Source of the DNA: Mycteria americana
Taxonomy: Eukaryota > Chordata > Aves > Ciconiiformes > Ciconiidae
Direction of reading: 5' to 3'
DNA: 64,000 nucleotides
NCBI RefSeq assembly: GCF_035582795.1
Contig: NC_134367.1
Coordinates: 90,069,062-90,133,061 of the forward strand
The translations under genes were made by a program, and so were the position numbers. Position 1 is the first letter of the stretch. Each line of letters opens with the position of its first letter. The notes below the pieces were generated by a model, which worked only from the letters and a program-made list of their open reading frames with translations, did no database searches and was not told the origin of the DNA. Below, piece after piece: positions 1-64,000 of the stretch.

Positions 1-3000
1 TGCTGATGAAGGGAAAAGGAGGGGAAGCGGTGATGAAACTGTCAGGTGGAGCTGGCAACAGTAATTGCTTACCACAGCCCACTTCCTTGGAAGCAAAGGA
101 TCGTGTCTAGCGCAGCAAGCCGACGTTGGCAAGAGCTCGCGTCCGAGTGAGACACCCCCATCGTCAACTACTGCACTGAACCTAATGCTCTGAGAACCTG
201 ACGGCGATGGAGGTTGTTCTGAGGGAAAGATGCTTTCTGTTGCGCGTGACCAGCACTGGCTGCACGCTTCCTTGCGCGTGTCCGTGGCACAGAATTAATA
301 GATGGGTCTCTAAAGACAGATCTATTAGGGCTGTTCCCAGTCACACTCAGTACTTTGGATCTAAGAATACTATTACTTCTGCTAACTAACGGCAACACCT
401 GCATTTCAACGCCACTTGCAACTAATATGAAAATCAGATTATCGTGCCTTGTAGCCTCTCCAGCCCTGTCAGACAAGATGGATGTACTTGATTCCTTCGA
501 TTCCCTGATAGGCACTCACCTGACTCAAAGTGGATGGCTGGACATCAGCTAGCCTTGGAGACAGCAAGCCGGCTACAAGACACCTATTGTAGCTGTCATG
601 AATGGCTTCGCTTATTGAAGGACCAGATTTCTTTAAAAAATTCAAGGTCTGAAACATCAATCACAAACTACAGATTAAGACAGCATTATAATTCAATCAC
701 TAAGGTTCTGGATTACCACTAAGAGAAATAGCATAAGTGTTCACTTAAACTGTCAGAAGGCTTGCATCAGCAATATGCTTTAGGTTAGCAGCCTGACTAA
801 GCATTACTATGCAGAGTCTTAAAGACGGCAGCCAAACTAACAGTTACGGTTCATAACAAAAATCCTGTAAAACAAAACATCAGCTCTTGCAAGGCTTAAT
901 TAAGTGTTTTCGAGTCAATACACAGGCCTTTCTTTTTCCCTGAACACTGACACAAAAGACATTCTATATGAGCTAAAACTAACACGCAACTTTAAATCAC
1001 ACTTTGGAAGACCCTTGCTATGCTGCTTTGTGCAGAAGCTGATTTATGCTGCAAATACTTAGTGAGCTGAAACTTAGTTCAGAATTATTTGTTACAATCT
1101 GTGCAGTGGCTCCGAAGCTGTGATTTGGCCAAGTTTGGGAGAAAAAAAATCTCATTTCTTCTTAAACGGTTCAATAAGTTTTCATTTTCTCCATTCTGTC
1201 CTCCTTTTTCAAGCTAATCAGGACAGAATTTCATTCCGTCCTCCTTTTTCAAGCTAATCAGGGTTCCAAACCCTAACTCAGGACCTATGCAGGCAGTTCT
1301 ATGCAGATGGGTAATAAAGTAGCAGCAGCTTTCCCCGACCTCCACAACAGTTTTGTTCTTGCTCCTAGAGCAACCTTGTATTCCTTTCCAGACATGCAAT
1401 CCCCGATCGTGCTTCAACAGGAGACAATGGTAGGTTTACAGTCCCAAGAGCGGAGCTAAAACACTACCATTTGCACAAAACTGGCAGGATACAATTGCAA
1501 TTATGCGTGTGGATGGGCAGGATGAGCATAAAATGGTCTCTGGCACTGAAAGCAGTGCAGTAGAAAAGGTAGAAAAGGTACACCTCTTGACATTCTCAAT
1601 CAAGATACAGTAAAAGATCACCTCCTTCTGGAAGCCGGTGCAAGTCATATGAACAACTCCGGAGGTCAGCAAGCACGTACCATCTGCAGAAACAATGAAC
1701 GTTTGGCAACATTCCACGCTCTCACAGTTATGTTATGACCTGTTTACATCTTTTAAATAGCAGTATCTGGAAAGATATAACTAAGCGATCATCACATCAC
1801 TTACTTACTTACAAACTTTTTTAAAACAAATTACTGTGTGTAGAAATTTCACCTCTAGTGCTGTTGAGGTGCTGTGCTTTGAGCTTCAGTTCAAAGGCAT
1901 TTCATTTTATAACCATCCCCACTTCACAGGCTACGTTACAAAAGCACCAAACCCCAAAACTCAGCAGACCGCCACATATGTTTCACAAGATTAAATACTC
2001 TGTTAGTACTCAGTTAGTAATCAGAGTTGGGTTGGGGGGGGGGGGTTGGTTTGAACAAGTGAACTAATAAATGGCATTTAACCTCCATTTAAGCTTATCT
2101 CTATTAAAAGCGGTGAAACACCTACCAAAATTATAGGTGCTTGGATGAAAAAACTGCTCAGGTGGTGGATAAGAAGGAGGAACTCCCCGACTTAGGCTCC
2201 GCTCATGTACCAGAATATCCAAAATGAGGTTTGGAGAAGTCACGCTTATTACAGCATCCAGTGACCACAACGCAAAATAGGGGCAGTCATGAAGGAATTC
2301 TTCTGGCCTTAAAGAAAACAAGTGCATAAGCTAAACGCTGACTTTCAAATGAATCCTTTGTAGGGATATTGAAAACAACTTAATAAAAATCTACCTTAGT
2401 GAATCTGGCATTTCAGCAGAATACCAGCGATTAATGTCAAATACACCCAAGTAAGTAGATGGTGCTCCCTGACCGTATGTATTCACTTGCCAACTGAAGA
2501 TTGATACGCTGGTGTCAGGAGATATTACTGTAAAAGACAAGACATTGCTTCTTATTTGTAGAAAATACGATACATCTGATATTTTTTAAAACACCACTTT
2601 CTGGTTTGGCTGAACTCTGTTCTATCATTCATGAAACACAGCCCTTACTAAGACTAATTTAAAACAATTACGGAATAGCAAACATCTCTGCGACAGGTTT
2701 CAGTCCTACTGCCCCTTTTTCTTGGTCAAATTGTATCCGTTCTAAGCCAAATCAAATACACAATGATTAGCTAATTCAATTTTCCATACATGAAGAGTTG
2801 ATCAAGACTTTTAGTTAAATGAATAGTGTATCAAAAAAGTTATGCTAGGAACACATACACTGCTACTTTTAGAAAGCATACAAATAATTATCACATACAC
2901 TTGGATCACTCAGATGGAATTATTGATTTCCAGATTTGACTCAATTACAAGTTTTCAGAGTAGCTCCTTTCCAGCATATTCAGAATGAAAGAACACAATT

Positions 3001-6000
3001 ATCACACTAAATAAACAAACAAACCCCCAACAAACCGGAAATTGGAATAAAGATTTTGACATAAAACATTCACAAAGTTATACTCAGTAAGTTCTCTCTC
3101 TAAGTGGAACGGTCTGTCTTCTCTGGGGAGAGCGCATTCTCTAGATGTAAAGCAAAGTATGTGGTCGAATAGAGCAAGGAACAAGGCGGCGGTTGGTTTG
3201 GCAAAATGTTCCTCTGCTCTCTGTTGCATTCATCATTACCATTTGGGGATCCTCACACACTTTACTATGTTTCATTGGCAACTTCTGAGCCATTTCAGTT
3301 TTGTTAGCCGCTCAAACTGCCTTTGAAGATATCCATTCTTTTCATAACTCAGAAGACAGCTTCACTGCTAGCCTCAACCCACACCCAACAGAAGCTCATG
3401 TGTGCCTACAACTTAACTTGAACAGATTCTGAATAAAAGCTAATTAGAAACCATCAGAAGAATTACAGGTAGTTCTCCATGCCTCATACTTCATAAAAAG
3501 GAGACAGAAAGGGGTTGTTTTGAGTTTTGGTTTTGGGGGTTTTTTGGGGGGGAGGGTGGGTGGTTTTTTTGTTTTTAACAAGTTTTTAGAAGGCACTCTC
3601 CTCAGAAACATGACACAAGTGGACAAAATCCAAAGGTGTTTATAATAGATTTTGACACACCGTTGACAGAGGATGGCATCACAAAAAGAGATGGAAGTTG
3701 CCACTTCAGGACTAAATCAAAGCTAATAAACAGAAATAGCCTAGAAAGATCATGCAAGTGTCTTCTTTGTAACATCAGACATAAGTTAAGGCCCGTAAGA
3801 AGAGAGGGAAGGCAAATAACACAGTCAAAACAAAAGGCTAGGAAAGTTATCACTGCAGCAGGCTCAAAGATCTGGTCAGAGCATAACTGAATTTCTAAAC
3901 CCAGAGATGTATATTTAATTATTGCAAGATAATGAAAGACATCTTAAGAGTTTGAACTGTCTGTACGGACAAGGAAAGCTATTGCTTTAAGAACTCGTAG
4001 GTGTAGGAACCCAATAGCTTTAGAGAGGAAAAAATGGACAGGCAGGTCATAGAATCATAGAATCATTTAGGTTGGAAAAGACCCTTAAGATCATTGAGCC
4101 CAAGCATAAGCTGAACACTGCCAAGTCCACCACTGAACCATGTCCCTAAGCACCACATCTACACGTCTTTTAAATACCTCCAGGGACGGTGACTCAACCA
4201 CTGCCCTGGGCAGCTTCTTCCAATGCTTCATAACCCTTTCAGTGAAGAAATTTTGCCTAATATGCAATCTAAACCTCCCCTGGCGCAACGTGAGGCCATT
4301 TCCTCTCGTCCTATCACTTGCTACCTGGGAGAAGAGACCAACACCCGCCTCGCCACAATCTCCTTTCAGGTAGTTGTAGAGAGCCATAAAGTCTCCCCTC
4401 AGCCTCCTTTTCTCCAGGCTAAACAACCCCAGTTCCCTCAGCCACTCCTCATCAGACTTCTGCTCCAGACCCTTCACCAGCTTCGTTGCCCTTCTCTGGA
4501 CACGCTCCAGCCCCTCAATGTCTCTCTTGTAGTGGGGGGCCCAAAACTGAACACAGGATTCGAGGTGCGGCTGAGTACAGGGGCACGATCACTTCCCTAG
4601 TCCTACTGGACACACTATTTCTCATACAAGCCAGGATGCCATTGGCTTTCTTGGCCACCTGGGCGCACTGCCGGCTCATATTCAGCCGGCTCTCGACCAA
4701 CACCCCCAGGTCCTTTCCTGCCAGGCAGCTTGCCAGCCACTCTTCCCCAGGCCTGTAGCATTGCACGGGCTTGTTGTGACCCAAGTGCAGGACCCGGCAC
4801 TTAGCCTTGTTGAACCCCATACAATTGACCTCGGCCCACTGATCCAGCCTGTCCAGGTCCCTCTGTAGAGCCTTTCTACCCTTGAGCAGATCAACGCTCC
4901 TGCCCAACTTGGCGTCATCTGCAAACTTACTGAGGGTGCACTCGATCCCCTCGTCCAGATCATTGATAAAGATATTAAACAGAACTGGGGCCAGTGCTGA
5001 GCCCTGGGGAACACCACTTGTGGCCGGCCGCCAGCTGCATGCAGATGCAGACATAGGTTTGAACAGGGAAAAAAAATTCCGGTAACATTCCTAAGCAATG
5101 GAGAGAATGATCTTATTGTTCAAAGAGGACAGCCGGAGGAATAAAATGACTGACAAGCATTATACAGATGACCCCACCATGCATTGCTATAGCACGTCAG
5201 CAAGCGTAAAACCAAACCTATGTTTTTCTTTAAAGAAGTCCCACCTAACTTAAGCACCCAATTTTTCTTTTTGAATAAGCCCAACAAGCTAGTCTATACG
5301 GACATTTAAGACTTTCAGACTGTGAGTACGGAACAGCATTCATTGCTTAGATTCCAAAACCATTCATTTTAGAATAGCCAAACACGGACATCAGAACAAA
5401 CCTTCATTAACGCTATCCTCTCTGTCAACATGGCTGCGAAATTTTTCTATAGTCTGACAGCTGAGTAATTTGGTACTGCTGATCTGCTCTCTCAAGGGAA
5501 AGACTTCATCCGTCAGATCTAAACTGTACCTTTCGTCACAGTGTTCCAAACCCTGGGGAAGAAATAAAAGAAGAGAGAAAAGGTCATTTGGAGATAAAAA
5601 CATACATTCTACCTAAATATGAAAGAATATCTCTAACATAATATGCATATTATACTGTATATTTCCCATGAGCTTACTTCTGATGGCAAATAGAAACTAC
5701 ATCTGACATGCAAGAGAATTGTCAAATCGTAACGGGCAAGTTTGGAGTTTGGCTGTAAAGGCTTTTTCAAGATTTAGCATTTCCCTAACATTGCTCAGTT
5801 CTAAACATGTTTTGCAGAATTCCTTGCAACATCGAGGAATGATCACTACAAACAAATTTAATAAAAGATGTCCTGAACAAGTCCACCATTTCAAAAGACT
5901 ATTTCATCAGACACAGTACTAAAACTCCATAAACCTGTCAGAGATTAATTTTAACAGCTAGAAATTTCAATTTTTATTCCCAAATGAAGAGCCAGTCCCT

Positions 6001-23398: not shown

Positions 23399-23528
23399 CG
23401 GGAAACCCGCCTGAGCCACAGCGGCATACTGGTACTCCCACTCCTTCTGGGCTTCCTCCAGCCGGGACCCCCACATCACCTGCGTGCTCCGGATCCGCCG
23501 CTCGTTCTCAGCCAGCAAAAACCGCTGG
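23399..23528 (-). CDS. Putative exon of unknown gene or upstream AHCTF1 exon
   Basis: The minus strand has the acceptor GGTTTTCAG, then 130 nt ending at the donor GTAACG. It encodes 43 residues: QRFLLAENERRIRSTQVMWG, then SRLEEAQKEWEYQYAAVAQA and GFP, a charged helical segment likely to form a coiled coil. The DNA is GC- and CpG-rich, unlike its AT-rich surroundings. It ends on a codon boundary, and the AHCTF1 ATG exon begins GGA AGA ATG after its acceptor, so splicing to it would stay in frame. I do not recognise the family. Confidence 0.4.
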
Positions 23529-32855: not shown

Positions 32856-32862
32856 AGAGGAC

Positions 32863-42700: not shown

Positions 42701-45700
42701 GGATGAAACACACCAGCTTCTTTTCCTGGTTCTGACGAATCTGGTTGTTCCGTCCAGAAAGGTTTATCTTCAAGCATTTCACTGTCTTCTTCCTTCTTCG
42801 ATTCTTGGAAATTGGCAGCTTCTTCAGTGGAAGAATTAGCTGGTTTAGCAGCTATGAAGATGACATCATCTTCAAAATCGCCAGGTGATTTGGCATCATG
42901 ATACTCCCAAGTAGTTTGGTCTGACCTGGCAGAGAAGCTACTGTTTTCTTTGCTGACATCTATTTTCTCCAAACCATCTCCAGGTAGGCCTTCGGAAGGC
43001 TCTTCCATTTCAGCACGATCATCCTCAGGATTGCTCAGAGTAAACACACTTGGTTTATCTCTACTTTCAGACCAAGCATCCTCCACCACACCATGATGAT
43101 GCTCAGATGAAGCTCCACATAGTGCTCTATCATCTTCTGTTACCTTTTTAAAAAAACAAAAAAACAAAAAGGTTCACAATCAGTAACATGCATATGCTTT
43201 AGGTCAAAGCAAGGAAAAAAAACCCAAACAAAAAAACCATATACTGATATTTGTAAGTTTTACAAGTGTCACCTTAAGCAAGGTGCTACAAAGTTCGTTC
43301 TCATTCTAGCACTATCTTAGCTTCTAAAGCTGAGTGTAAAAATTAATCACACTTTTGACTGCTTCTTGAGTTTCCATGACCTTGCAGAATTAAGATGAAG
43401 TGCTTGCTTACACTGTCATCTCAAGGCTGTTCATTGGGTTCACTACTGTGCTTTCAAGAAGAGGGAGCTTTGCACACCTAAAATCATAACTCAAGATTTC
43501 TCTTTCTGTTATGCTTGCCTTTTCAACTTGTATGCACTACTAAACTATTTTAGTGTTCACTATGCCTGTAGCATGGAACAAGTCAATTCATCTGGCCACG
43601 CTGTGTTATCAGCAAGAACGTCATCTAGGAGACAGAGCCTCTTGTTACAACTGAGTAGCTCTTCACAACAGGCAATAAATGGTATAATAAAAAGAGAGTA
43701 CGGCAATTTGCTGGTACATGTACGGAAAGCTCATACATGGAGATACCAGCACACGCCCCTGTTCTGCCCCTGGTTTGGGTACGTTACTTCGGCATCTGCA
43801 CGATGAGCTGACTCAGGGAATCCCAGTGACAGAACAAAAGGAGGAGGAGAAGGGGGCAACTTTCGGGTGGACCAACTTCATTTGACAGCCAGATGAATGC
43901 TATCCCTGGTGCAAGGCAAGAAGCAAAACCGAGAACTTTAAGGCTAGAGAACACACAACAGTACAGCTCTCTTCCTCAGGAGTCTGTTTTTACCATCATT
44001 TAAGTAAAGCCAGCCTTGCAAAAAGAGAGACTGAAAGGAAATGCAGGTCATGACTTTTGTTGCTTCCAAAGATCTTTGATTCACAAAGCTTAACAAACTC
44101 AAACAACTGGCTCGCTCTGTATTCCTTACCTTCCTGCCATACCACCGTTTGAAAAGGTAGAGCGGGAAGCTGAACTAGCAATTGGGAACAATCACAGCTC
44201 CTAACAACACTTGAGTACAAACCGCCAAGGTCACTGGCATTTACTATGACTACGTTCCTGCAGGCACGTGATGTTACAGAAGGTCTGACATAACCTTTTT
44301 TCACCAAATTCAAGTCTGCCATTCTGATCTGCAATTCCAGTTGGCAATATTAGGAGTTCTGGCAAACTTTCAAAAAATCTAAATCAAATCACAGTCTATT
44401 AAGCCTTTAGCTGTAAACTTCCCTAAGTACAGCCCAGCTTACCCCAACAGTCCATTCTGCACTCGAGTTCTCTTCCCTGAAAGATACTCTAGGTTTCTTT
44501 GCTCGTACAGGAGGACTAACTGATCGTCCTGGAGACGCAGAGCGAGTTGCTGGGGCTGTGGTGCGAAGGCTGGATTTGAGAATAGACCGAGGAGTAAACC
44601 CAGGAGAAGCAGAAGCGGATGTGGCCAAAACTTTAGCCCTCTATGAAAAGAAATAAAAACATTTAAATTCAAAACAGCTAAATCTTCAAAACAGAAGACT
44701 TCCCTCGTCAAAAGTATTACTTTCAATTACAAACTGCGTTTGTACCAGCAGAGAGGACAAAGTTTAGCCTCTGCACTGCTCTTTTTCCAAAGGTACAATA
44801 ATCTTAGTGATAGAAACCCATGCTTTTTATGTTTCTTTGGCTTTGTTTTTTTTAAATGCCAACATAAACTGGTATTTTTCAAATGAATTTCCTGAAGAAA
44901 CAAGGGTATGGCATCTTGTTGCCTGCAATGTTATCTGCCATGCCGGTAAGTTCTGCCATTCCTACGCTGCTCTTCTAACAGGCATACAACTTCAGATGTC
45001 ACCCTGGACACAGTGACTGAAAACGCTGCCATGCAAAATGGCAATCTGCAAAGCAACAGCGAGAGCTTATTTTTTCACTAATTAATCAATCCGTGCACTA
45101 GGCTAAACTAAGTGACGCTGCTGTAAAAATCCCTGCACATCTTCATCGAGAAGCGTTCAGGTCTTCTTACCTCAGCTCAAAAAACATTTTACAGTATTGA
45201 AAGGGTTTACAAGGAGGATAATGAAACTAGCCTAACGGTACGGGCAATATTTAAGATGAAGAAAAAGGTTACAATTCAGAGAGATCACAACTATTTTGTT
45301 CAGGTAGGCAAAGGCAGAAAGATCAGCACCAAGCAGATAGCTGAAATGTTATTTCCTTGCATGGTACAGTTTGCTGGCAGTGAATGGGAATACGGTTTAA
45401 CACAAACAATTAATAACTAAAATTACTGCAAAAAGCCATCACTGAATTGGACAGAGACTGACATCACTTAACTGACATCACTTAGTTGTCATTCACTGAG
45501 CTGCATGGAGAACCTGAAGCATATACCTTCTTGCTTGTGGGGATGCAAGTCAAACTCCTCAGAGCTATTGAGCACTTAAATAATGAGATGGTTAAGCTAC
45601 AGATTGCATCTTCAGGTGTCTAAGCTATCAAGTATCGAAGTACCGTGCAATAAAAACAAGTGCATTTCACAAAGCTATGGGACAACGTGCATACTGCAAT

Positions 45701-48700
45701 TAACTTCAAACTAAACCTTCCCTCTTCAAGACTGTTCCCAACGTACTGCTTCCAAAAGGGCTCTATATACAGTAACCACATGTGGAATATGGAAAATATT
45801 CCACAGTTTGAATCCAACAGTGTTTGTGTTAAATACTTTTTGGTGGTTTCATTTTAAACAAAGTTTGCAGGCTTTTGGTTTGGTTGGTTGTTACTGTTTT
45901 TTTAAAATACAAACCTTAACCACAAGGGGAGTCTCCAGTAACTTCAGCTCTGATGCTCCGGACAAATTCTTTGCTGAGACGGGACCATGCATATTTGATT
46001 TCAGTGGGCTGGACGCCATGAATGAAGCAGAAGCTCTGCATGGTGACTGCCAGCTACCACCCTGTGCTGCAGAACACGAAGGAACAGGACGAACCACCAA
46101 ATCCAGCAATCTGTTAAGATGCACAATTTAGAATATGAAAAAAAAGAGAAATAAATGACAAAAATCATGCTGCGTGCAAGAAATCTGAGATGATGATACC
46201 TAATAAAAACATTTGATGAAGAAGAAAAACAGGTGAACCCTCACTGTTGGGGTCATGTATCAGGCCCATGAACAGGTTACAGGCACTTTCTTTTTTTTTT
46301 TTTTAATTATTTCTTTACATTTCATACTTAATTTCCTAAATCACTGCCTCTGAGGCAAGAGGAATCCAGTTGTCAGTTGCACAAGTGATGTAATTCTCCT
46401 GTCAGAAGAAAGTTCATCTACGTTTCAGTGCTGGCACCACTTCAAATTCTCCACTTAGTTCTGTCCCTAAGTCGACCTTTTCTTTAACAGATACAAAACT
46501 AAATGCAAACAGGACACTTTGCAAACACGGAGAGTACATACACGTGCACGCACACACACACACACACACATATATGTGAAGCAACACCTTTTGGAAACCG
46601 TCATTCTGTAGATCCACTATACCTGGAACATTGCTGTGAACGTTTTGTAACTGGTGTCCCCAGAAATGCATCATGCAACTCTGCATCAGGGAGAGGCTGT
46701 GGTATGACTGGTGGTTCTGTAACTCGAGGACTAGAATGAAAAGGAAAATGTAACTGACTTTCATTCCCTGAGGTCCAAACATACCAGAATTCAAGTTTGC
46801 TTGACCACACCACCTGTAGGAAAATCATCTGACAACTACTAGCCTCTTTTCTGCTCTTTGTAATTCTGCCTAGTTTCAAGTGACAAAGGCAGACACGAAG
46901 CAGACACTGGGCAGGAAGGGGTAAAAGATTACTATTTGAGCACCAATCAAGTCTACCGAAATCTGTACACCAAGAGCTTGATGGTAATCATTGCTTTCGT
47001 TTCAGTGACCTTAAATTCTCTAAACACGTTTACCATAATGTAAATATCTGTATTTGCATAAATAAGATTGTCATAGCCGAAAAACTCTCTCTCCAAATAT
47101 ACTTATGATGTATTGAGTCTTCAATGTTGCCTATGATATGTGCAAGAAGCCAAACAAAGCTTTATTCAGGTGCACCTTCCCTCCAAAACACAAACATAAT
47201 TCAAATGGATTTTTCCCTCTCTCTCCAAGCACGTAGCTCAAGACTAAACTTTGTTAAAAGGCTGCTTACCTATCATATTGTGAGAAACTGGCTTTCTGCT
47301 CATTTCCTACCCCGACTTCTCTAATTTTGGACAATACATTACTGATGAAAGTTTCTCCTGCATGCACATTTCCTGCATTAGCTTGGTTTGTTACTGTTGA
47401 TAGTGGCTTTGGTCTTGCGACTGTAAAGCAAGAGGGACAAAACATCAGCCCTGTGTAATCAAAGTGATGGTGAGCTCTCCATTATATTTCCCCCCTACAA
47501 ATTACCTTCTCTTAAGACCGATGAAGGCAAATGGTAAGGCTTGGCTCTCTCTACAGCCAGCTTCCTTTGAACTCTAGGAAGGATCTTGCCATATCGGTCT
47601 AATACAGAATTTCTGGCAACTGCTCTCTCTCTCAAGCAAGGGTCACGATCATTCTGACGAATGAAAAGCGTAAAGCGAAAAGTTAACCCATCACAAGAAG
47701 TTCATTGCACAGAACTGTCTGTGCTATTTCTAATTAGTGAATAAATTTCCTCTACAGATACACTCAAATACAGCCACTGCACGGAACAGCAGCAAGTTCT
47801 ACCCATCAGCACACACCCTTTTCACCTGGTATTTTCAGTGCAGTGGAAGGAAGACGAGAATAAAAACAGAACCTACAACTTTAAGTTCAAACAATTCTGG
47901 CACTCTGCAGAACCTTACTCTGATATGCTTCTTATCACCTCCCATTTTCAAATGGCTTACAAAATAGCAGGCTTTCCCCTGTTTTTCCTGAAACGCCAAT
48001 GTCTGGGATGACTGAATATACAGGGCAACTGCAAATCACGTTGGACAAAGTGATGTCTTTGTCCAGAGTCTTAAAACGAGTAAGAAAAAGCTACCTACAC
48101 GCACCTTCCGGCTGGACGAAAGTTTTCAAATGCGGCACCTAAAACTTCCAAAACCACCTTATAAGTTTGATTCACTAGAAAACTGTGCTTCTGCAAAACA
48201 GCAAATGCATCACAGATCCATAACAGAAGTTCACGTAACACAAAATTTAATCTGGCTATTTTGAGAAACAGAAGTTAGGTAAGAATTTCTCTCATAAAAG
48301 TGGCAAAATGCAAGTTGTGGACTTGCAGAGCTCACGCTATAACTTGAAGCAGAAACAGTAATACTAACAAAAAACAACACCACGCAAATTTTACCTGTGC
48401 ATTCACATCCAGGCGGCTCTCAGCTAGAAAAATAAAGCGGCGCGCAAGATACAAGAGATGACATTGGAGTCACCAGTGGTCTCTAACATTTAATTTATAA
48501 CTTCACAGAGTAGCTTTGGAGTAGTGAACTATTTTGTTCAACTTCTAGGTTCAGCTGTAACTGCAGGTGTTGAAATACTAGGTGTTGAAATACTAGGTGT
48601 AGGTAACTTAAGGTGTTGAAATACTACATGCTAAGAATAGTGTAAAAAACAGAGCAGGATTTTTATTGAGTACTATCAAAAACGGTTAGTAACAGCCAAC

Positions 48701-51700
48701 AGAAACTTGCACACTTGACAGAACTTTTATGCTTACCATAAGGGTAACCTTCATTGACTGATTGGACTGTAGTGCTGGGATATGGTTGGCACGCTGCAGA
48801 TGGTGGACTAAAAGAAAGTCATCATGCTGAACACCAGCATTGGTCTGTAAAAACTTCTCCAAACACTCCTGTGAGAAATAACACGTTTCAAAACTCTATT
48901 ATGATTCCGCCTCTTCTCTTTTCAAAGAGACGATTACGATTTTCTTTCTTGTCCACACTTACCTGTTCAGTGTCTGTGAAAGGTAGCTTCAGTAAGTCTT
49001 CCACTAGTCCCATCTCCTGACAGATTTCATACATGTGTTTTAGCAGCTCTTCTATGTTTAACTTCGTGCTATGTTGCTGCAACAGACCCCAAGCCTCCAC
49101 CATGCACCTGCAATTGATTGTTTTGAGATGTAAAGGCATATTAATAGTATGACCAAAAAGATGCCCCAAAACTATTGGGTTCAAGGTTGAAAGGAAATTT
49201 AGGGGAACATGCTTTGTGTCATTTGTTCTCCGCCTTTCACAATAGCTGAAGGCCAAAACGGTGGGATACATGTCTTTACCTATTGGACAACAACACAGTG
49301 AGGAAAAGCCGCACTTCACTACTGCTTGACATGGATGGCTTCATCATCTGTATGTATCTGAGGGCTGGCCTATGCTCCCCTTGGCACATGAGGGATTGAA
49401 GAATTCTCCTATGCTGCCATGACACGGTTTTGATTGTAGTTGGATGAAAGAGCAGGGCCAGCGAATTCTGTAGAAGTTAAGAGATCAGGCTCATTAAGAT
49501 ATATGCATACCCTCAGGCAACAAAAATATTCAGAAGTCTCTCAAGTAAGGGCGAATGTGGGTTAAACAAACTCATATGGCTAACTAATGAAATACTTCAT
49601 ACAGGACACGTAAATAAAAATTGTGAAGTATTTGCAGAAGAAATATTCAGTTAGCCATAGAGAACCAAGTGAGTGTTTTAAAAGGAGTAAGTCACTCTCT
49701 TCTAGGTTAACCAAATCTCTGTATACAAACATCCCTTTTTATAAACCCATTACTAAACAAGAAGTTATTCTCCCAGGCAAACAGATTATATTAACCTTGT
49801 GACAGGCAAAAATCAACCTTCAGCATCAGAAAGAACACGAGTTAGGTTGAAAAGTCACTTTTGCAGTCTTCTGGCTCAAATCTTGCTGCTATGATCATAG
49901 TTTTAACATCTGAAGTGCCCAAACCCCTGTTTTTGAGAAAGCGCTCAACTGGCCTGCTGAAAACCGCCTACACAGATGGCTTTGAAAATTCAGTTCATTA
50001 CAGCATCATTCAAGCATCATTACAGTTGATTTCTTCTTTGTTTTAATCAATTTCCTGACCAAGTAATGAAAACAACATTTCAAATCATCATGCATTGCTG
50101 AAGATGCCATAGCAGTATTACAAAAAAGCTTCTCATGTTTTATCACCTGTTATTAGCCAAGCACCAGTTTTTAAAAATCATTTTATGGATCATAGCTTTG
50201 TACTGCAACGTACGTCTCACTAAACTGTAACATACTTACTTCATAATCACTGTGATCTAGAAGCCAAAAACCTTGAATAAGCTTAACAAGTCCCCAAGGG
50301 ATAGCAAAGGCACCTGAGAAGGAGTTGACCAAAGTTTCTGTTTTATTCGGAAAGGAATGCGTGATATCTAGAAGCAAGTAAATTGTCTGATATCAAGTAT
50401 CTAATTAAGGCTAATAAATTTCTAAGGTCAAAAATTCATCACATTACATTTAGAAAAACACAGTGAAATAAGAATATAAAAGTGGTAGGAAGCAGAAACT
50501 ACTAAGGTAGTAGTCTTGCCATTTGAAGCTCTTATAAGCTGAAGACAGGCAGGTCCTACCCACAAAATTGCATTCTGAATAAATAACCAGAAAGAAATAC
50601 ACTTTGATTGCTGCAAGGCATTCAAAAAGGTTAACTTTAGATATTTAAATGCTTCAGTTATAAACTCGGGCTCCCTCTTGAGTCAGTGGAGCTACCAGTT
50701 GGCCATCCAAAACATTGGAACATCCAGTGCTTAATTATTACAAGAAACAAATTCTACACTTCTTTTTTCCCCTCACTCCCAGAGCCTACAAAACAATGCA
50801 TGTTATGCTGTCCTTACGGTACAACTTAGCTCTGCAGGATTAAAACTGGATTTAAAACAGTACGTGGATCACTCGGTGGTAGTGTCATCTTCTCTTTCTG
50901 ACATCCGTTTTTAGGGACATATTCTAATTGTTGTAGCTCTGGGCTACAACAGCCTTTAAACCCCTTGCTCTCTCGGCTCCCCTCTCGGGTTAGGCAACAA
51001 ACAACAAAAGCAATTTGGTATATGTCAGCAGCTTAAAAATCAAGTTTCTGCCCAAGGACTTTTCTCTTCTCTCTCTTTAGTATTCTGTGTGCCTGCACTT
51101 TCAGCAGAACAAAAGCAAGCACTCTTAGCTGTGCTGGAAAACGGATGATTTTGGCAAAAATCAGGCACTGGTACACCACTGTAAGAAAGCCCTTTGCTCC
51201 GAAGCAGCACGTTTTAGTGCATCGTTCTAGTAAGCAGCCATTTGCTACAGACACGGGTGCTTTGAAAAGTTAAAAACGGCGTTAAATTTGGGGAAAAACT
51301 AAGGGAGGGTTTTCTCTTTAACATTTCTTAGTAAACCTGTTTTCTCATATCCCAAAAGACGTGGCACCAAAACATTAACAAAAATAATCATAACATATCC
51401 ACAGTGCAAAGACATAAAACACTGCTTCTGTCTACGACTTAATGGAAAACTAAATGTTTTCACTTGCATTGTGGTTGAAGCATAAATTTTAAAATGTTAT
51501 TAAACACGTAGGTGACAAATATTTAAGAACATTTATGTGCGCATACTGAAGGTGTAATAAAAATAACTAGAAAGGATACGATTGCATGTTTGTCGCTCTC
51601 TTCAATGCTTTCTAGCAAATAGAGATCCAGCAGTGCCTGAAATGAAAAAGTAAAAGTTCTTTAAAAACTCCCGTCTTTCATAAATCATTGGCTTTTTGGG

Positions 51701-54700
51701 GGGGCGGGGGGGGGGGGGATGTCACTGTTGTTGTTTTCAGTGAACATAACACTCACATGTAAACTAGCAGGTGGGTATTTCCCAGTTCCTCCTTCATCTC
51801 TCCGCCACAACTTCTCAACTTGGTCTCCTAACTGGGAAACCATTCCATCAATCATCAAGCAGTCAGAATCCCATTTTCCTCTGCAACAAAAGGTAGCAAG
51901 GGTTTGGACAGAGGAAAATACTAATTTCAGCCTCTCAGTCTAACAGATTTCCTCCAGCCAAAACAAACAAACAAAAAGAAAGTAACAAATGTACCAAGGC
52001 ATGATTATGGCTTGAAATGCACATGAAAGAAATTTCTCAGTCACATGGAAGATGTTCGATACATCATATTGAATTCTTAAAGGAGTCCAAAGTAGAAATC
52101 CTCAAAGCTCTCTTACCAAGGGAAAAGTTGCAATGACCTTTTAGTTTTCAGGTGTTCTTTTTTGTTGTATTACTTGTAATACAAAGGAAGTGCAAACAAA
52201 GTTTTGTACGTGCCCAAAAGAACTGCTCTCATGCTGTCTAACAGAGGAAACGTAACAGTATCAAAATACCAGGACTATTCTTTAGCACACAAATCCAACG
52301 CCTCAAATTGGACTGTTCCAACACACAGCTGTGAGACGACATAATGGAAATTTCAGATTTTGTTCTCAGCATCTCACTTTTGTTACTGAAAAGAAGTTAT
52401 TCTCAGACAGCTGAGCATACAGGCAAATTTTAGCACCATCTTCAGCAGCATGCATGTTTCTACACACAGATCATTACAATTACAGATGGCTGAACTTTTA
52501 AAAAGTACATTCTGCAGAAGTCCATCCTGGTCTTCTGCTGACTGCGACGCTACCCTTTAATTTCCCGATAGTAAAAAGCAGAAAAAGCACCCTAGAGGTT
52601 GTACGCTTCCAAGGAACACACGAGCCTGTACGTAAGTTACTTGAGAAGTAAGCTAAGTAAGATGAACTTTCAAGTCAATACCTACTACGCTGCAGCTTCC
52701 ACCTTAACACGTCTTGCAGCATCTTGTTCACAGGGCCATAGCCCAAGCTCCTGGAGGTCTTTATTTCGTTTCCAGAACCATTTCCAAAGAAAAATCTGTT
52801 CTCATCTAATCCAAGGCATATCGCCTATATGCTACTAAGCTAGTCCAGGAAAGAGAGTTGACACTCGCAAGGGACTTTTACCCAACAGCCAGTAGAGTGC
52901 TAGGTGTGCCAACCGCACGTAACTCTGCCTATCTTGTTAAATTACACAAATGTACTTGTGAGTAGGAGATTCAGGCCAACACAATTATTGCCATCTATTA
53001 CTAGCCCATGAGAGAGATGGGGTTTTTTTTAAAAACGTGCTTTCTTCTGTGTCCAACACAACTGTTCTGTGATCGCCGTGCTTTGCTGAACTGGAGATGA
53101 CTGATCCTATCCTAAACATGTGATCTTTTTCAGTAGTAACAAATTATACAGATTAGCCAATGAATTAGGCACGCTACAAAAAAATGATGATACCAACAAA
53201 TGGTACTAAGCAGAGGTATATGTAAACATTTTAACACAGGAAAGTAACCTCTGTGTTCAACAGAACACATGCATCCCTGAAGTCAACAGCATTGCTGGCA
53301 AATGCATTAAGCATAGCACATACACCTGTTGATATAAAAGCCATTCCCTTCCACTTCTGAATTTGCAGGGGAAGTGTTCCAGAGTTTTCCAGTAAGTCTT
53401 ACCTTGATAAATGCTCAAGCTTCTGTCGATGAGCAGTGTAGTAGCTCTGAATCAGAGGATAATTGTAGAAAGGTCTAGACAAATGCATGTCGTCATCTAC
53501 AGGCAATAAAGTAAAACCAAGTTAAGGACGTAACGTCACATTTTTAAACTAAAATTGTTGACTAAAAAGACAGACGATCATACAAGCTAAGCATCACGAA
53601 GCCTCCCACTCTGAAAGAAGCCAATCCTGTTTCTGCCTTTGCTAAAAGAGATGTAAGACACAAGACTCAATTCCTTCTTGTCTCAAGTGCCATTTCACGT
53701 TTACAGTTGATGTAGCATTCAGAACAGGTAGCGGAAGCTGAAGTTCACTATGAAAAAAAACAATTCTCAAAGGGAATGGTTTTTTAAACAGGTCACGTGA
53801 GCATTTGTAAGACAATTAAGGCTGACAATAGGGTTTATAATCCATCCCAAGAAAGAAGTATTCCCAAGGTGTATTTTTTCCTCAAGCAATAAAGAAAAAG
53901 TTCCAAACATGCGGGTAATGCTTTTACTGTAAAAGCAAGCGTTCCAATCTTTGTTGTTTCATAGTAATTTGTTTAAAAGCCCAAGCATTTCAAGCTGGGG
54001 ACACAAGCAACTCCTCGAAGTCAGAGCCTGATTGCTATTTCTAAGAAACATCCAGGAAAGAAACTGCTCGCATTATTCTACACTACGCGTTTGAAAAACC
54101 TGTAAAATCTCAGTTTCGCCAACGGAACTTCAGCATACGCTCTCACTGAACTAACACGACTTGTTATGGACGAAACATTTACAAAAGCATGGCTAAGCAT
54201 GTGTTCGTAGGAACCGCTTACTGGATAGTCCCTTTGTTACAAATGCATTACAGTTTATGCTTACCTAAACCCTCTGGAAGGAGGCTGGATCGACAGAACC
54301 AGATGACCGCTCGTGCGTACAAAGAAACGAGGCGAGTTACCACCTGCTTATTTGTCAAGTCTGCAAAACCTGAAAAAAGGCACAAGGTGATTTTTCTTAT
54401 GCGATTCCTTTCATTTTTACAAAACTCCCTCCATCATACCAAATACAAAGTATAAAAATAACATGGTAGAAACCTTTCTCTTTGCATTTTTCACTCTGGA
54501 TCACTTCCTTGTTTGAAGGAAAAACCCACACTCAGCACCAAAACAAAAAGCAACCCCTACAAAGAAGCAGATTCACTAAAGATTCAAACAAACAAAAAAA
54601 ACCGAACAACGCCTCAACTATCAAATGCACTCATGAATAAGACATCTGTTTTTCACCAGCAGAGATTGTTACTGTAGCAAAGGGGTATTCTTTCTTCCTC

Positions 54701-57700
54701 AATATGCCAAGAGCAATTTATCATCTAAAAAGTGGTAGAAACTCAGGTAACTTATTTCACAGCTTACTCATTTATGCTTCCTTTCTATTTTTTAGTCATT
54801 TGCAATGCAATAGTTGCATGCAATTATAAATTGCTAGCTAAGAATGAAAAAGAATACTTTTCAGCATTACCACATTCAGTCGGTGTAATTTCAACCCAGT
54901 TGCTTCCATAGCTTCTTGCTGAATGTAGCCTCCCCTACCCCCTTGCAGGAACTCCACAGCAAACTGTTTCCCTGAACTCCATGCACATTAAGCGGTAGTC
55001 CCAGCTTCTCAGATGCCAGCCCCTTCTCCCAGCTAAATGTCACTGTCTTCCAATCATCACAAGCAACAATAGCTCATGTTTCCACAATTACCACCCAAGC
55101 CTAATTCCAAATCTTAAGAAAACATTCCAAACATTTAGCAACACTATTACAAACCTTTTTCAGTAAGCTCTTGTGCTTCTGTTAGAAAACAGTTTAAGAC
55201 TGTGCTAAGGTTGCTCAAAAGCAACTGGCAGTGCTGAAGAGACTGCAATGTCTGCGGGTCCATGAAGTTGCAAGAGCCATCGAACAGCGGAACACCTTTT
55301 CAAGAATAAATATTAAATCGTTAGCCTACAGAGCAATTCCAGAGTTTCAAAGTGCACTTAAAGAACTGCGTGCAGTGACATGTGCCAGCAGATCACTGAA
55401 TAAGCTCAGTTAGAAAGAATGATTTTACGTTTGCAGAATGACTACACTGGTACTCACATATTTGGTCAAATTCATCTTTTGTATAGATCACTTTGTTCCA
55501 CGTCCACTCAAGAACAAACCGTAAATTAGCAGCAGAACTTGGCTGCTCTTTAAAAAAAGAGAGCAAAAAAGAAGTGAATCAACAATTTCAAACTAAAAAG
55601 TTTACAACAGAAAAACAACATAACAAGTACTACCTTCAGATGTCCAATGTTTAATGCATCCAGTCAGAAGTTCTAAAGACCCTGTCTGGACAGCAGCTGA
55701 CAATACCGCTTCTAACTGCTCCTCCTAAACATAACAGACAAAAGAAAATGAGAATCTTACCTACTTTCAGTACCCAAACCATCAACAGTAAAGGTTTGTT
55801 TCTAACGCTATACTCATTCCGACACCACAAAGTCAATTAGCACACACGCAACTAATTCCACATTCTTCTTCTTAATTCTAGCCGCAGGCCGGACTGCTTG
55901 GCGGTCTGAGGAACACATTACACTTTTCCCCTGACTTTTCAACTTACTGACGGCCAATTCTAACCTGAGTTGACATCAGAACATCTCATTTGAATGTAAG
56001 AGTCTACATCAGGCTTGCAAAATCAACAGTCTAGGGGCTAGGCCAACTTGCCAAGAAACTGAGTTTACCTACCACGCTGTGCAAAAGCGTTACTTGCCCT
56101 AACACACCGCCACAAATCTGGTGAAGAAGCCAGCAGACGGGAAGATGAGGGCAGTGGGAAGACTGCTCTCCCCCTCCTGCTCATTGCTCCACTGTATGAT
56201 GGCTAGCTAGCTGACCATTTAGCTTAGGTCCTGCCTGGCTGAAGACGGGCTGTTCACCACAAAGGCTCCATCTCTCTTGAAACTCTTCAGGTGGGAGGGA
56301 AAGGTTGGTGCACTGCAAATGGAAAATCTATGAAAGAGCAGGGTGTAAATTGGGCTAGTAAAAAAGCACATTGGGCTACTGTAGCACACGGCAAAGGCTA
56401 CAGCAGTGAAGATCTGCTTTGAGAGGCTGCAGAAGAGCCTGCTGATGAAGGGAAAAGGAGGGGAAGCGGTGATGAAACTGTCAGGTGGAGCTGGCAACAG
56501 TAATTGCTTACCACAGCCCACTTCCTTGGAAGCAAAGGATCGTGTCTAGCGCAGCAAGCCGACGTTGGCAAGAGCTCGCGTCCGAGTGAGACACCCCCAT
56601 CGTCAACTACTGCACTGAACCTAATGCTCTGAGAACCTGACGGCGATGGAGGTTGTTCTGAGGGAAAGATGCTTTCTGTTGCGCGTGACCAGCACTGGCT
56701 GCACGCTTCCTTGCGCGTGTCCGTGGCACAGAATTAATAGATGGGTCTCTAAAGACAGATCTATTAGGGCTGTTCCCAGTCACACTCAGTAGTTTGGATC
56801 TAAGAATACTATTACTTCTGCTAACTAACGGCAACACCTGCATTTCAACGCCACTTGCAACTAATATGAAAATCAGATTATCGTGCCTTGTAGCCTCTCC
56901 AGCCCTGTCAGACAAGATGGATGTACTTGATTCCTTCGATTCCCTGATAGGCACTCACCTGACTCAAAGTGGATGGCTGGACATCAGCTAGCCTTGGAGA
57001 CAGCAAGCCGGCTACAAGACACCTATTGTAGCTGTCATGAATGGCTTCGCTTATTGAAGGACCAGATTTCTTTAAAAAATTCAAGGTCTGAAACATCAAT
57101 CACAAACTACAGATTAAGACAGCATTATAATTCAATCACTAAGGTTCTGGATTACCACTAAGAGAAATAGCATAAGTGTTCACTTAAACTGTCAGAAGGC
57201 TTGCATCAGCAATATGCTTTAGGTTAGCAGCCTGACTGAGCATTACTATGCAGAGTCTTAAAGACGGCAGCCAAACTAACAGTTACGGTTCATAACAAAA
57301 ATCCTGTAAAACAAAACATCAGCTCTTGCAAGGCTTAATTAAGTGTTTTCGAGTCAATACACAGGCCTTTCTTTTTCCCTGAACACTGACACAAAAGACA
57401 TTCTATATGAGCTAAAACTAACACGCAACTTTAAATCACACTTTGGAAGACCCTTGCTATGCTGCTTTGTGCAGAAGCTGATTTATGCTGCAAATACTTA
57501 GTGAGCTGAAACTTAGTTCAGAATTATTTGTTACAATCTGTGCAGTGGCTCCGAAGCTGTGATTTGGCCAAGTTTGGGAGAAAAAAAATCTCATTTCTTC
57601 TTAAACGGTTCAATAAGTTTTCATTTTCTCCATTCTGTCCTCCTTTTTCAAGCTAATCAGGACAGAATTTCATTCCGTCCTCCTTTTTCAAGCTAATCAG

Positions 57701-60700
57701 GGTTCCAAACCCTAACTCAGGACCTATGCAGGCAGTTCTATGCAGATGGGTAATAAAGTAGCAGCAGCTTTCCCCGACCTCCACAACAGTTTTGTTCTTG
57801 CTCCTAGAGCAACCTTGTATTCCTTTCCAGACATGCAATCCCCGACCGTGCTTCAACAGGAGACAATGGTAGGTTTACAGTCCCAAGAGCGGAGCTAAAA
57901 CACTACCATTTGCACAAAACTGGCAGGATACAATTGCAATTATGCGTGTGGATGGGCAGGATGAGCATAAAATGGTCTCTGGCACTGAAAGCAGTGCAGT
58001 AGAAAAGGTAGAAAAGGTACACCTCTTGACATTCTCAATCAAGATACAGTAAAAGATCACCTCCTTCTGGAAGCCGGTGCAAGTCATATGAACAACTCCG
58101 GAGGTCAGCAAGCACGTACCATCTGCAGAAACAATGAACGTTTGGCAACATTCCACACTCTCACAGTTATGTTATGACCTGTTTACATCTTTTAAATAGC
58201 AGTATCTGGAAAGATATAACTAAGTGATCATCACATCACTTACTTACTTACAAACTTTTTTAAAACAAATTACTGTGTGTAGAAATTTCACCTCTAGCGC
58301 TGTTGAGGTGCTGTGCTTTGAGCTTCAGTTCAAAGGCATTTCATTTTATAACCATCCCCACTTCACAGGCTACGTTACAAAAGCACCAAACCCCAAAACT
58401 CAGCAGACCGCCACATATGTTTCACAAGATTAAATACTCTGCTAGTACTCAGTTAGTAATCAGAGTTGGGTTGGGGGGGGTTGGTTTGAACAAGTGAACT
58501 AATAAATGGCATTTGACCTCCATTTAAGCTTATCTCTATTAAAAGCGGTGAAACACCTACCAAAATTATAGGTGCTTGGATGAAAAAACTGCTCAGGTGG
58601 TGGATAAGAAGGAGGAACTCCCCGACTTAGGCTCCGCTCATGTACCAGAATATCCAAAATGAGGTTTGGAGAAGTCACGCTTATTACAGCATCCAGTGAC
58701 CACAACGCAAAATAGGGGCAGTCATGAAGGAATTCTTCTGGCCTTAAAGAAAACAAGTGCATAAGCTAAACGCTGACTTTCAAATGAATTCTTTGTAGGG
58801 ATATTGAAAACAACTTAATAAAAATCTACCTTAGTGAATCTGGCATTTCAGCAGAATACCAGCGATTAATGTCAAATACACCCAAGTAAGTAGATGGTGC
58901 TCCCTGACCGTATGTATTCACTTGCCAACTGAAGATTGATACGCTGGTGTCAGGAGATATTACTGTAAAAGACAAGACATTGCTTCTTATTTGTAGAAAA
59001 TACGATACATCTGATATTTTTTAAAACACCACTTTCTGGTTTGGCTGAACTCTGTTCTATCATTCATGAAACACAGCCCTTACTAAGACTAATTTAAAAC
59101 AATTACGGAATAGCAAACATCTCTGCGACAGGTTTCAGTCCTACTGCCCCTTTTTCTTGGTCAAATTGTATCCGTTCTAAGCCAAATCAAATACACAATG
59201 ATTAGCTAATTCAATTTTCCATACATGAAGAGTTGATCAAGACTTTTAGTTAAATGAATAGTGTATCAAAAAAGTTATGCTAGGAACACATACACTGCTA
59301 CTTTTAGAAAGCATACAAATAATTATCACATACACTTGGATCACTCAGATGGCATTATTGATTTCCAGATTTGACTCAATTACAAGTTTTCAGAGTAGCT
59401 CCTTTCCAGCATATTCAGAATGAAAGAACACAATTATCACACTAAATAAACAAACAAACCCCCAACAAACCGGAAATTGGAATAAAGATTTTGACATAAA
59501 ACATTCACAAAGTTATACTCAGTAAGTTCTCTCTCTAAGTGGAACGGTCTGTCTTCTCTGGGGAGAGCGCATTCTCTAGATGTAAAGCAAAGTATGTGGT
59601 CGAATAGAGTAAGGAACAAGGCGGCGGTTGGTTTGGCAAAATGTTCCTCTGCTCTCTGTTGCATTCATCATTACCATTTGGGGATCCTCACACACTTTAC
59701 TATGTTTCATTGGCAACTTCTGAGCCATTTCAGTTTTGTTAGCCGCTCAAACTGCCTTTGAAGATATCCATTCTTTTCATAACTCAGAAGACAGCTTCAC
59801 TGCTAGCCTCAACCCACACCCAACAGAAGCTCATGTGTGCCTACAACTTAACTTGAACAGATTCTGAATAAAAGCTAATTAGAAACCATCAGAAGAATTA
59901 CAGGTAGTTCTCCATGCCTCATACTTCATAAAAAGGAGACAGAAAGGGGTTGTTTTGAGTTTTGGTTTTGGGGGTTTTTTGGGGGGGAGGGTGGGTGGTT
60001 TTTTTGTTTTTAACAAGTTTTTAGAAGGCACTCTCCTCAGAAACATGACACAAGTGGAGAAAATCCAAAGGTGTTTATAATAGATTTTGACACACCGTTG
60101 ACAGAGGATGGCATCACAAAAAGAGATGGAAGTTGCCACTTCAGGACTAAATCAAAGCTAATAAACAGAAATAGCCTAGAAAGATCATGCAAGTGTCTTC
60201 TTTGTAACATCAGACATAAGTTAAGGCCCGTAAGAAGAGAGGGAAGGCAAATAACACAGTCAAAACAAAAGGCTAGGAAAGTTATCACTGCAGCAGGCTC
60301 AAAGATCTGGTCAGAGCATAACTGAATTTGTAAACCCAGAGATGTATATTTAATTATTGCAAGATAATGAAAGACATCTTAAGAGTTTGAACTGTCTGTA
60401 CGGACAAGGAAAGCTATTGCTTTAAGAACTCGTAGGTGTAGGAACCCAATAGCTTTAGAGAGGAAAAAATGGACAGGCAGGTCATAGAATCATAGAATCA
60501 TTTAGGTTGGAAAAGACCCTTAAGATCATTGAGCCCAAGCATAAGCTGAACACTGCCAAGTCCACCACTGAACCATGTCCCTAAGCACCACATCTACATG
60601 TCTTTTAAATACCTCCAGGGACGGTGACTCAACCACTGCCCTGGGCAGCTTCTTCCAATGCTTCATAACCCTTTCAGTGAAGAAATTTTGCCTAATATGC

Positions 60701-63700
60701 AATCTAAACCTCCCCTGGCGCAACGTGAGGCCATTTCCTCTCGTCCTATCACTTGCTACCTGGGAGAAGAGACCAACACCCGCCTCGCCACAATCTCCCT
60801 TCAGGTAGTTGTAGAGAGCCATAAAGTCTCCCCTCAGCCTCCTTTTCTCCAGGCTAAACAACCCCAGTTCCCTCAGCCACTCCTCATCAGACTTCTGCTC
60901 CAGACCCTTCACCAGCTTCGTTGCCCTTCTCTGGACACGCTCCAGCCCCTCAATGTCTCTCTTGTAGTGGGGGGCCCAAAACTGAACACAGAATTCGAGG
61001 TGCGGCTGAGTACAGGGGCACGATCACTTCCCTAGTCCTGCTGGCCACACTATTTCTCATACAAGCCAGGATGCCATTGGCTTTCTTGGCCACCTGGGCA
61101 CACTGCCGGCTCATATTCAGCCGGCTCTCGACCAACACTCCCAGGTCCTTTCCTGCCAGGCAGCTTGCCAGCCACTCTTCCCCAGGCCTGTAGCATTGCA
61201 CGGGCTTGTTGTGACCCAAGTGCAGGACCCGGCACTTAGCCTTGTTGAACCCCATACAATTGACCTCGGCCCACTGATCCAGCCTGTCCAGGTCCCTCTG
61301 TAGAGCCTTTCTACCCTTGAGCAGATCAACGCTCCTGCCCAACTTGGCGTCATCTGCAAACTTACTGAGGGTGCACTCGATCCCCTCGTCCAGATCATTG
61401 ATAAAGATATTAAACAGAACTGGGGCCAGTGCTGAGCCCTGGGGAACACCACTTGTGGCCGGCCGCCAGCTGCATGCAGATGCAGACATAGGTTTGAACA
61501 GGGAAAAAAAATTCCGGTAACATTCCTAAGCAATGGAGAGAATGATCTTATTGTTCAAAGAGGACAGCCGGAGGAATAAAATGACTGACAAGCATTATAC
61601 AGATGACCCCACCATGCATTGCTATAGCACGTCAGCAAGCGTAAAACCAAACCTATGTTTTTCTTTAAAGAAGTCCCACCTAACTTAAGCACCCAATTTT
61701 TCTTTTTGAATAAGCCCAACAAGCTAGTCTATACGGACATTTAAGACTTTCAGACTGTGAGTACGGAACAGCATTCATTGCTTAGATTCCAAAACCATTC
61801 ATTTTAGAATAGCCAAACACGGACATCAGAACAAACCTTCATTAACGCTATCCTCTCTGTCAACATGGCTGCGAAATTTTTCTATAGTCTGACAGCTGAG
61901 TAATTTGGTACTGCTGATCTGCTCTCTCAAGGGAAAGACTTCATCCGTCAGATCTAAACTGTACCTTTCGTCACAGTGTTCCAAACCCTGGGGAAGAAAT
62001 AAAAGAAGAGAGAAAAGGTCATTTGGAGATAAAAACATACATTCTACCTAAATATGAAAGAATATCTCTAACATAATATGCATATTATACTGTATATTTC
62101 CCATGAGCTTACTTCTGATGGCAAATAGAAACTACATCTGACATGCAAGAGAATTGTCAAATCGTAACGGGCAAGTTTGGAGTTTGGCTGTAAAGGCTTT
62201 TTCAAGATTTAGCATTTCCCTAACATTGCTCAGTTCTAAACATGTTCTGCAGAATTCCTTGCAACATCGAGGAATGATCACTACAAACAAATTTAATAAA
62301 AGATGTCCTGAACAAGTCCACCATTTCAAAAGACTATTTCATCAGACACAGTACTAAAACTCCATAAACCTGTCAGAGATTAATTTTAACAGCTAGAAAT
62401 TTCAATTTTTATTCCCAAATGAAGAGCCAGTCCCTCCCAAAGTTGGGGCAGAGGGGAAGGGGAAAATAATATCAAACAATTCCTGCCTAAGACAACTCCT
62501 GAAGCAAAACAGTCGAGATTAAATTTTCCACACTGGGGCAAGCAAATCTAAGTTAAGGAACTCCACTGTACGGAAGATGTTAAGTAATGCCTTTACTGAG
62601 CAGTAAAATATGAAGGCAGTTTTCAAATGAGAGGCACTGGTCAGACTCTGATGTGAAAGCAGAGACTGTACACTCTGTCCATCCGCAAGCATTGTGCAGG
62701 ACAACGGTAAAGACGTGCTCCGTGACCATGATTGCATACACTGGATTTAGCAACTGCTGAGATGGTATAAAAAAGATCTTTGAAAGCATAACTTAAACGT
62801 ACCTTTATGTTTAATTACTCGAGCACAGACTTCAACCAGCCTTGAAGGCAATGCAGACACAAGTTTCACGCTCATTTATAAAAAAACAGTGCCACGTGTT
62901 CCAAAAGGCCTGTCTGTGACTTTTGACCACCATACAAAGTCAAAGATGCGCTGTTTCATCTTTGAAAGCCTCAAGTCTGGTTCCTGGAAAGTTAAGCACT
63001 GCTGCCGTAGACAAGTCTTTCAAGCTCCTATGAACTCTCTTCAGTGAACAAGGGTCAACAGGAGATTCCTCCTTGTTTACTCAAACTTGGCCTGGCAAAT
63101 GGGAACAACTCTTAAATCTTCCGCCACTGAAGATGGACAAGAAACTTGACTCAGACAGCCATGTGGGCAGACAGCCAGGTAGTACTGGCCAATTTGTGAC
63201 TACAAGGAAGTATTCTGAGACTAAAAAAGTCCTCTCTAGAGCACAGATCCTGTCCTAAGGCATCTCTTGGGGGTTCTTTTGGGGGTTTGGGAGTTGGTTT
63301 GGGGTTTTTTTTGGCAGTAGGTGATAGCAGGTCTTGGTATGAAGCTACACGGGGAAGTGGCTCATCTGGAAGCTAGCTGAAGCAGCTGCCTTTTCTCCCC
63401 AGAGGGTCCAGCTGTGTCGTTCCCTCTTCAGCTACCTTGTAAGATTGGTTCCTGTTCCAATCCTCCACAACACTCCTCACAGGGAAGCAGAAAGAGCAAG
63501 GGAGTGAAAGATCTCAAATCCAGAGGCCGGTGCCTGACACCTCTTACAACCCTGTGAATGCATTACTGGTTGCACAGTCTGCAGAGGGTTAAAAGTCTTG
63601 CATTAACTACACCACAGCTTTCTCAGGCGGCAAACACAACATTATTTAATCACTTTGTGTGCTTTTTTCTAAGAGCGTCACCTGGAATTTCTAGTAGACC

Positions 63701-64000: not shown

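Follow-up and report, generated by a model that had tools for sequence, protein, structure and literature searches.

The 64-kb window analysed here (C3:90069062-90133061, on a 133-Mb contig of the Mycteria americana assembly of 1,348,465,905 bases in 279 contigs) carries parts of two copies of AHCTF1 on the minus strand. The product of AHCTF1, ELYS, initiates the post-mitotic rebuilding of nuclear pores on chromatin, and the gene is generally regarded as single and essential. Spliced alignment placed exons 11 to 1 of the first copy (copy 1) at 1..17598, with exons from 520 and the remainder of the gene left of the window to C3:90047613. The second (copy 2) has its exon 32, a large exon of the disordered region, at 34978..36735 and exons 31 to 7 at 38846..61987, exons 6 to 1 being right of the window; exons 32 to 12 of this copy thus occupy 34978-55724, and exons 11 to 7 occupy 56959-61987. 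The ORF at 34978-36519 (minus strand) within exon 32 corresponds to residues 1596-2072 of human ELYS (E 7.5e-53), and its nearest proteins among the matches listed were those of Ciconia maguari (95%) and C. boyciana (94%) over 480 residues. In a tree of exons 28-32 (FastTree), the window copies joined both Ciconia with support 1.0. A sequence-only reading of this window had proposed the exon order 11-1, 32-12 and 11-7, which the spliced protein-to-DNA alignment reproduced on the minus strand, and a 7.56-kb end repeat with about 0.4% difference, which was borne out by BLAST: positions 1-7560 and 56440-64000 are 99.5% identical, with 28 substitutions (21 transitions and 7 transversions) and 2 indels. 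Scanning the window for Rfam families and tRNAs gave no matches.

We found that these two copies belong to a larger array. A 2-kb probe (window 7000-9000) had seven matches in the genome, all on C3 and on one strand (7/7 candidates scored). Searching with a stork ELYS protein, we found exon 32 seven times on C3, at spacings of 56.4-60.8 kb, and no ELYS copy outside C3 among the 21 of 511 candidates scored, a scope that leaves room for a weak copy elsewhere. The tandem array claimed by the earlier reading is therefore real, and its size had been understated, since there are seven head-to-tail copies rather than two, spanning at least 395 kb of C3. Copy 7 stands at the upstream end, and copies 1-6, which we call the ALT copies, lie downstream of it, with pairwise differences of 0.28-0.88% over 5-kb pieces. 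The left array edge (C3:90044996) is equivalent to window position 32365, which marks the unit boundary and has no strand; the right edge lies beyond the stretch read, the array sequence running at least to C3:90440475. A 786-bp deletion is common to copies 2, 3, 5 and 6 and absent in copies 1, 4 and 7, and a retroelement piece (window 30200-32300) is present in 5 array spacers and absent between copies 6 and 7; the array units have their own individual history. Adjoining the left edge is a 214-bp scrap of ELYS exon 32 (C3:90044748-90045000), which resembles the filler of a rearrangement break and has a short imperfect inverted repeat (TTGGGTGAGACC..GGTCTCACCAA) beside it.

The spacer contains kinesin-like exon fragments, which are probably from KIF28, judging by human synteny. 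One lies just 3' of ALT exon 32 (34162..34371, minus strand), and the genome search gave two more at 23405-23542 and 25057-25215, both on the minus strand. The first piece occurs once per ALT copy (n = 6) with 3 weak matches beyond the array, and none was found downstream of copy 7 (42/42 candidates scored). Kinesin-like exons remain only as pieces within the array, from C3:90046797 to 90384195, and the intact neighbouring kinesin gene seems to have been lost here. The spacer also holds old retroelement pieces with reverse transcriptase and RNase H (Pfam) at 30197-32300 and 29281-29484; many related sequences occur across the genome, especially on contigs C33, C36, C35 and C228. Two retrotransposon pieces at 4038-4982 and 27294-28249, presumably CR1-like, are 89% alike, and a perfect (AAAAT) run occupies 28472-28555.

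Spliced protein-to-DNA alignment separated the copies into two structural classes, which supports the diverging paralogue raised as a possibility by the earlier reading. Copy 7 is a complete gene of 35 exons and 2278 codons without stops or frameshifts, and its protein ends in VVRRKML. ALT copies 1-3 have exons 1-32 in the lengths of copy 7, with splice sites kept and a frame open for about 2106 codons; their coding DNA has no gap column in 6300 bases and no stop before the ALT end. Copy 4 is open in exons 15-32 and copies 5 and 6 in exons 22-27, these being the portions read together with a few individual exons. No disabling stop, frameshift or splice loss was thus found before the ALT stop in copies 1-3 or in the read parts of copies 4-6; the ALT truncation itself could be called disabling. 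In copies 1-3 the exons for residues 1-2100 are present and open. By the domain limits of the condor protein P0004 they span the beta-propeller (1-489) and the helical region (722-944), and they also include most of the disordered tail. What ALT lacks is exons 33-35, which encode the RRK nucleosome anchor at the C terminus: copies 1-4 end at the ALT stop, and in copies 5 and 6 the match ends at residue 2100 within exon 32. The gene in the window had been taken for a complete one, and in fact it is copy 7 that represents the normal gene. ALT exon 32 diverges and its homology ends after ..ATTACAAGA, followed by a new ending of about 6 codons and a stop. We rejected the possibility that this tail is an alternatively spliced canonical exon, given that the exon 32 DNA itself has diverged and its homology ends at that break, and a retroviral origin of its CPVC motif was dropped because the DNA before the break aligns with canonical exon 32. 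These alignments indicate that the ALT copies are ELYS by descent, and not full ELYS.

We compared copy 7 with the ALT copies exon by exon. Copies 1-3 differ from copy 7 by 1.0-1.1% in noncoding and 1.8-1.9% in coding DNA; distances of 7.2-7.6% from copy 7 in 5-kb pieces were taken as misalignment by structural differences and discounted because intron 6 differs by only 1.2-1.4%. Eight exons (7, 15, 19, 22-24, 26 and 27), here called hot exons, are 2-9% different between copy 7 and ALT, synonymous sites included, and the introns flanking them are 0-2.4% different. The largest count was in exon 27, where 18 of 198 bases differ and copies 1-6 carry the same exon (copy 2, 44443..44640; flanking introns 0.4-0.9%). 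For copies 1-3, the differences from copy 7 were 9/151 in exon 7 of the beta-propeller (copy 1, 5402..5552; copy 2, 61837..61987), 5-6/105 in exon 15 (copy 2, 5 at 54265..54369, flanking introns 0.7-0.9%), 9-11/147 in exon 19 (copy 2, 9 at 50240..50386), 5/132, 4-5/148 and 7-8/151 in exons 22, 23 and 24 (copy 2, 5, 4 and 7 within 47270..48868), and 4-6/196 in exon 26; all of these window features are on the minus strand. Together, the eight exons have a pS of 4.9-5.6% and a pN of 5.0-5.3%, giving a pN/pS of about 1. The hot set was picked after the divergence had been seen, and the rotation tests below are independent of that choice; exon 26 was counted in the set for pS, pN and site counts and omitted from the hot-exon trees.

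Class-diagnostic sites were found at 82 of 6222 exonic positions (tail omitted) versus 203 of 31797 noncoding positions (P 1.3e-7). For exons 8-32 without the tail, the counts were 62/5098 exonic versus 63/18655 intronic, a ratio of 3.6 (rotation P 0.0002). The differences form 16 islands, of which 11 touch exons versus 4.25 expected (rotation test, P 0.004); from exon 8 on, all eight islands are in exons, one of them by 175 of its 181 bp, and five of the 16 lie wholly in introns 3, 4, 5 and 7. Outside the islands, exons and noncoding DNA have similar rates (0.31% and 0.36%). Because selection on amino acids alone does not raise pS, the hot exons appear to be older than their own introns, that is, to have an older common ancestor than the neighbouring introns. 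For the same reason simple positive selection by point mutation was set aside, as it does not by itself lift synonymous divergence there to 5%. The ALT pattern looks like that of an older paralogue homogenised by gene conversion, some exons excepted.

Next to the stork array we placed the ELYS-like proteins of other birds, which are automatic gene models among the matches listed. Relative to a canonical relative, the gull protein differs in exons 7, 15, 19, 22-24 and 26, not 27, and the hawk proteins in 7, 22-24 and 27 but scarcely in 15 and 19. The per-exon change profile was correlated between stork and gull (rho 0.43, P 0.02), and no correlation was found for stork-raptor or gull-raptor. 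In a site-coincidence test that takes account of how conserved each site is among 109 canonical proteins (several of which come from the same species), 14 changed sites coincided between stork ALT and gull versus 6.8 expected (P 0.003), 10 versus 5.4 between stork ALT and hawk (P 0.03), and 21 versus 8.6 between gull and hawk (P 0.0004), these being raw P values from three tests. Some ALT changes recur in the ELYS-like proteins of hawks, gull, curlew, ibis and penguin. For example, S185L, N362S, H409S and I1232V are recurrent, with at most one canonical bird protein differing at each site; S185L is common to stork ALT, gull, ibis and curlew, and I1232V to stork ALT, penguin, hawk and curlew. 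A138P is present in gull, ibis, penguin, hawk and rail and absent in the stork, and at most one canonical protein scored differs there. Ibis-penguin matches from about residue 600 to 970 look misaligned, these models being without the helical domain, and were left uncounted. The ELYS-like models without this domain (PF13934) are P0013 (ibis), P0014 and P0015 (penguin) and P0122 (curlew), reflecting either real exon loss or a gene-model artefact. Cluster member counts were set aside, since isoforms are mixed with paralogues in them.

The ALT ending, ..(I/V)TRTC(P/L)VC(K/Q), was found in 4 of the 130 proteins searched, namely Accipiter, Haliaeetus and two penguin models, and was absent in the Buteo models. 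The Haliaeetus model has both a canonical-like and the ALT end and may be chimaeric. C. boyciana P0003 has an ALT-like ending up to ..RACP followed by kinesin residues with the kinesin Pfam domain PF00225, and it is the one automatic gene model in which an ELYS-kinesin exon fusion appears; it combines the ALT tail with canonical residues at nearly all ALT-specific sites and is perhaps a chimaeric gene model. Numenius arquata has three distinct ELYS proteins (P0122, P0123 and P0054), presumably encoded on one chromosome, with contigs each measuring 133,184,443, and two of the three end in ..DRIGKICSVCKYV, which resembles the ALT ending but joins on further along the protein. A different alternative tail, ..EKK(A/V)LG(H/P)LHQWK, is common to P0022 (gull) and P0096 (mousebird). 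Protein trees of the hot exons (FastTree; stork, gull and hawk included) do not unite the ALT proteins of different orders: each ALT group nests in its own order on a branch 0.118-0.139 long, which, taken alone, favours independent origins. The recurrent changes and the ALT ending shared with hawk and penguin models suggest, on the other hand, an old avian paralogue.

We propose that ALT goes back to an old tandem duplication of ELYS in birds, and that this paralogue would have been amplified anew in the present array, in units of 56-60 kb. Conversion between ALT and the canonical gene would continually even out the introns and many of the exons. Selection would remove conversion events that replace ALT-specific exons, most of which belong to the half that binds the nuclear pore, so that those exons stay 2-9% different. 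We regard the account that combines the seven-gene array, an old ALT paralogue, conversion with protected exons and a predicted chromatin-uncoupled product as reasonably probable.

The ALT copies might instead be young, dying duplicates, that is, unexpressed or unconstrained pseudogenes that are kept open because they are recent and because copy 7 converts them. This would fit the low divergence among ALT copies and their truncated 3' end, and relaxed constraint would also produce the pN/pS of about 1 in the hot exons. As 3.6% of random changes give a stop, only about 2 stops are expected in the roughly 60 hot-exon changes. Against this reading, the 6300 coding bases of copies 1-3 have no gap column, and 32 kb of noncoding DNA has 33-42 indel events for each comparison of copy 7 with an ALT copy; the one coding indel event in each comparison lies outside the gap-free bases, where exon 32 reaches its ALT end. 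In addition, the variants within ALT (27 nonsynonymous and 16 synonymous) are below the neutral ratio (P 0.026), neutral decay does not predict that islands prefer exons, and the same changes recur in other orders. We consider decay unlikely.

A second possibility is that the hot exons were converted from a third, diverged ELYS source, such as a retrocopy or a lost paralogue, or by exon-biased gene conversion, in either case without selection. Seven of the 16 islands lie wholly inside exons, as such events would leave them, and the hot-exon changes lean towards G/C (33 W>S versus 16 S>W). Both classes of change are raised in the hot exons, however, the exon 7 island extends over 621 bp of which 470 are intronic, and the search of C3 and the other contigs described above gave no further ELYS copy outside C3 (21/511 candidates scored), so that we give this explanation little credence. 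Least probable is an assembly artefact (haplotypes joined end to end or an over-expanded repeat); the sequence-only reading had named joined haplotypes or a contig closed on itself as its main alternative. The low ALT-ALT difference of 0.28-0.88% would suit an artefact, being within the range of allelic differences, but a false duplication gives at most two near-identical allelic copies and here are seven in two classes, one with a different 3' end, with the 786-bp deletion in four copies only, an exon 27 identical in six copies and 18 bases off in the seventh, and no N in either of the long array stretches fetched. A circular contig or two joined haplotypes we rejected on copy number and class structure; even if two haplotypes had been merged, the real array would still hold about four copies.

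Returning to an old, conversion-protected paralogue, we asked what its product would do. ELYS binds nucleosomes through an AT-hook and the C-terminal RRK, and a C-terminal ELYS peptide without the last ten residues no longer bound nucleosomes (PMC6499780). N-terminal ELYS fragments that contain the propeller and helical regions are reported to localise to the nuclear envelope all the same (PMC4920428). AT-hook-like stretches persist in ALT exon 32. The predicted ALT product could join the Nup107-160 (Y) complex without the RRK anchor on nucleosomes; with Y-complex binding kept and the anchor gone, it is predicted to work as a chromatin-uncoupled ELYS. It might modify or compete with pore assembly after mitosis, or give rise to pores off chromatin. 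In its fullest form, the proposal is of a second long-lived ELYS class that would predate the split of storks, penguins, hawks, gulls and ibises, would have lost its anchor, been amplified in tandem and kept its pore-binding exons protected from conversion, and would serve as a chromatin-uncoupled pore-assembly factor, perhaps specific to the germline or embryo. This full version we put forward tentatively, as possible but somewhat doubtful in all its parts.

In the open-access literature, a scope that mostly leaves subscription papers aside, we saw no description of amplified ELYS genes in birds, and a term search of the main text of the C. boyciana genome paper found neither ELYS nor AHCTF1 (PMC11494145). 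The automatic NCBI names 'protein ELYS-like' hint at paralogues, so the copies are annotated and, as far as seen, apparently undescribed. If the proposal is true, naturally anchor-less ELYS genes would separate pore binding from chromatin tethering in a living vertebrate. Divergence centred on exons in a homogenised array also provides a setting in which selection against gene conversion could be measured, and it bears on the question why Y-complex nucleoporins evolve fast.

Compared with canonical AHCTF1/ELYS (MEL-28), the ALT genes share exons 1-32 with the propeller and helical regions and differ in being without exons 33-35 and the RRK anchor. For ELYS, Nup96 and Nup160 of Drosophila, no array or truncated paralogue is described in the material consulted. 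Closer in pattern is the primate L/M opsin array, in which exon divergence likewise lies above intron divergence, and in our comparison of the paralogues the exons exceed the introns with synonymous sites included. In gibbons, this has been attributed to intron conversion together with selection that guards functional exons (PMC3213168). The stork array differs from it in that eight exons of a 32-exon gene are concerned and one canonical copy stands against six truncated ones, and in that the gibbon exon tree recovers the old duplication whereas the ELYS hot-exon tree does not. RGPD (RANBP2-like, GRIP-domain) proteins have an altered C-terminal end. In great apes, the RGPD family arose when a nucleoporin gene was amplified along a single chromosome, and some of its exons are reported to be under positive selection (PMC6920530). 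Like RGPD, ALT is a multi-copy truncated nucleoporin with a changed tail, here six copies with a new ending of about 6 codons. The RGPD copies are, in contrast, dispersed and ape-specific, and ALT forms a homogenised head-to-tail array of a bird ELYS gene, possibly in several orders.
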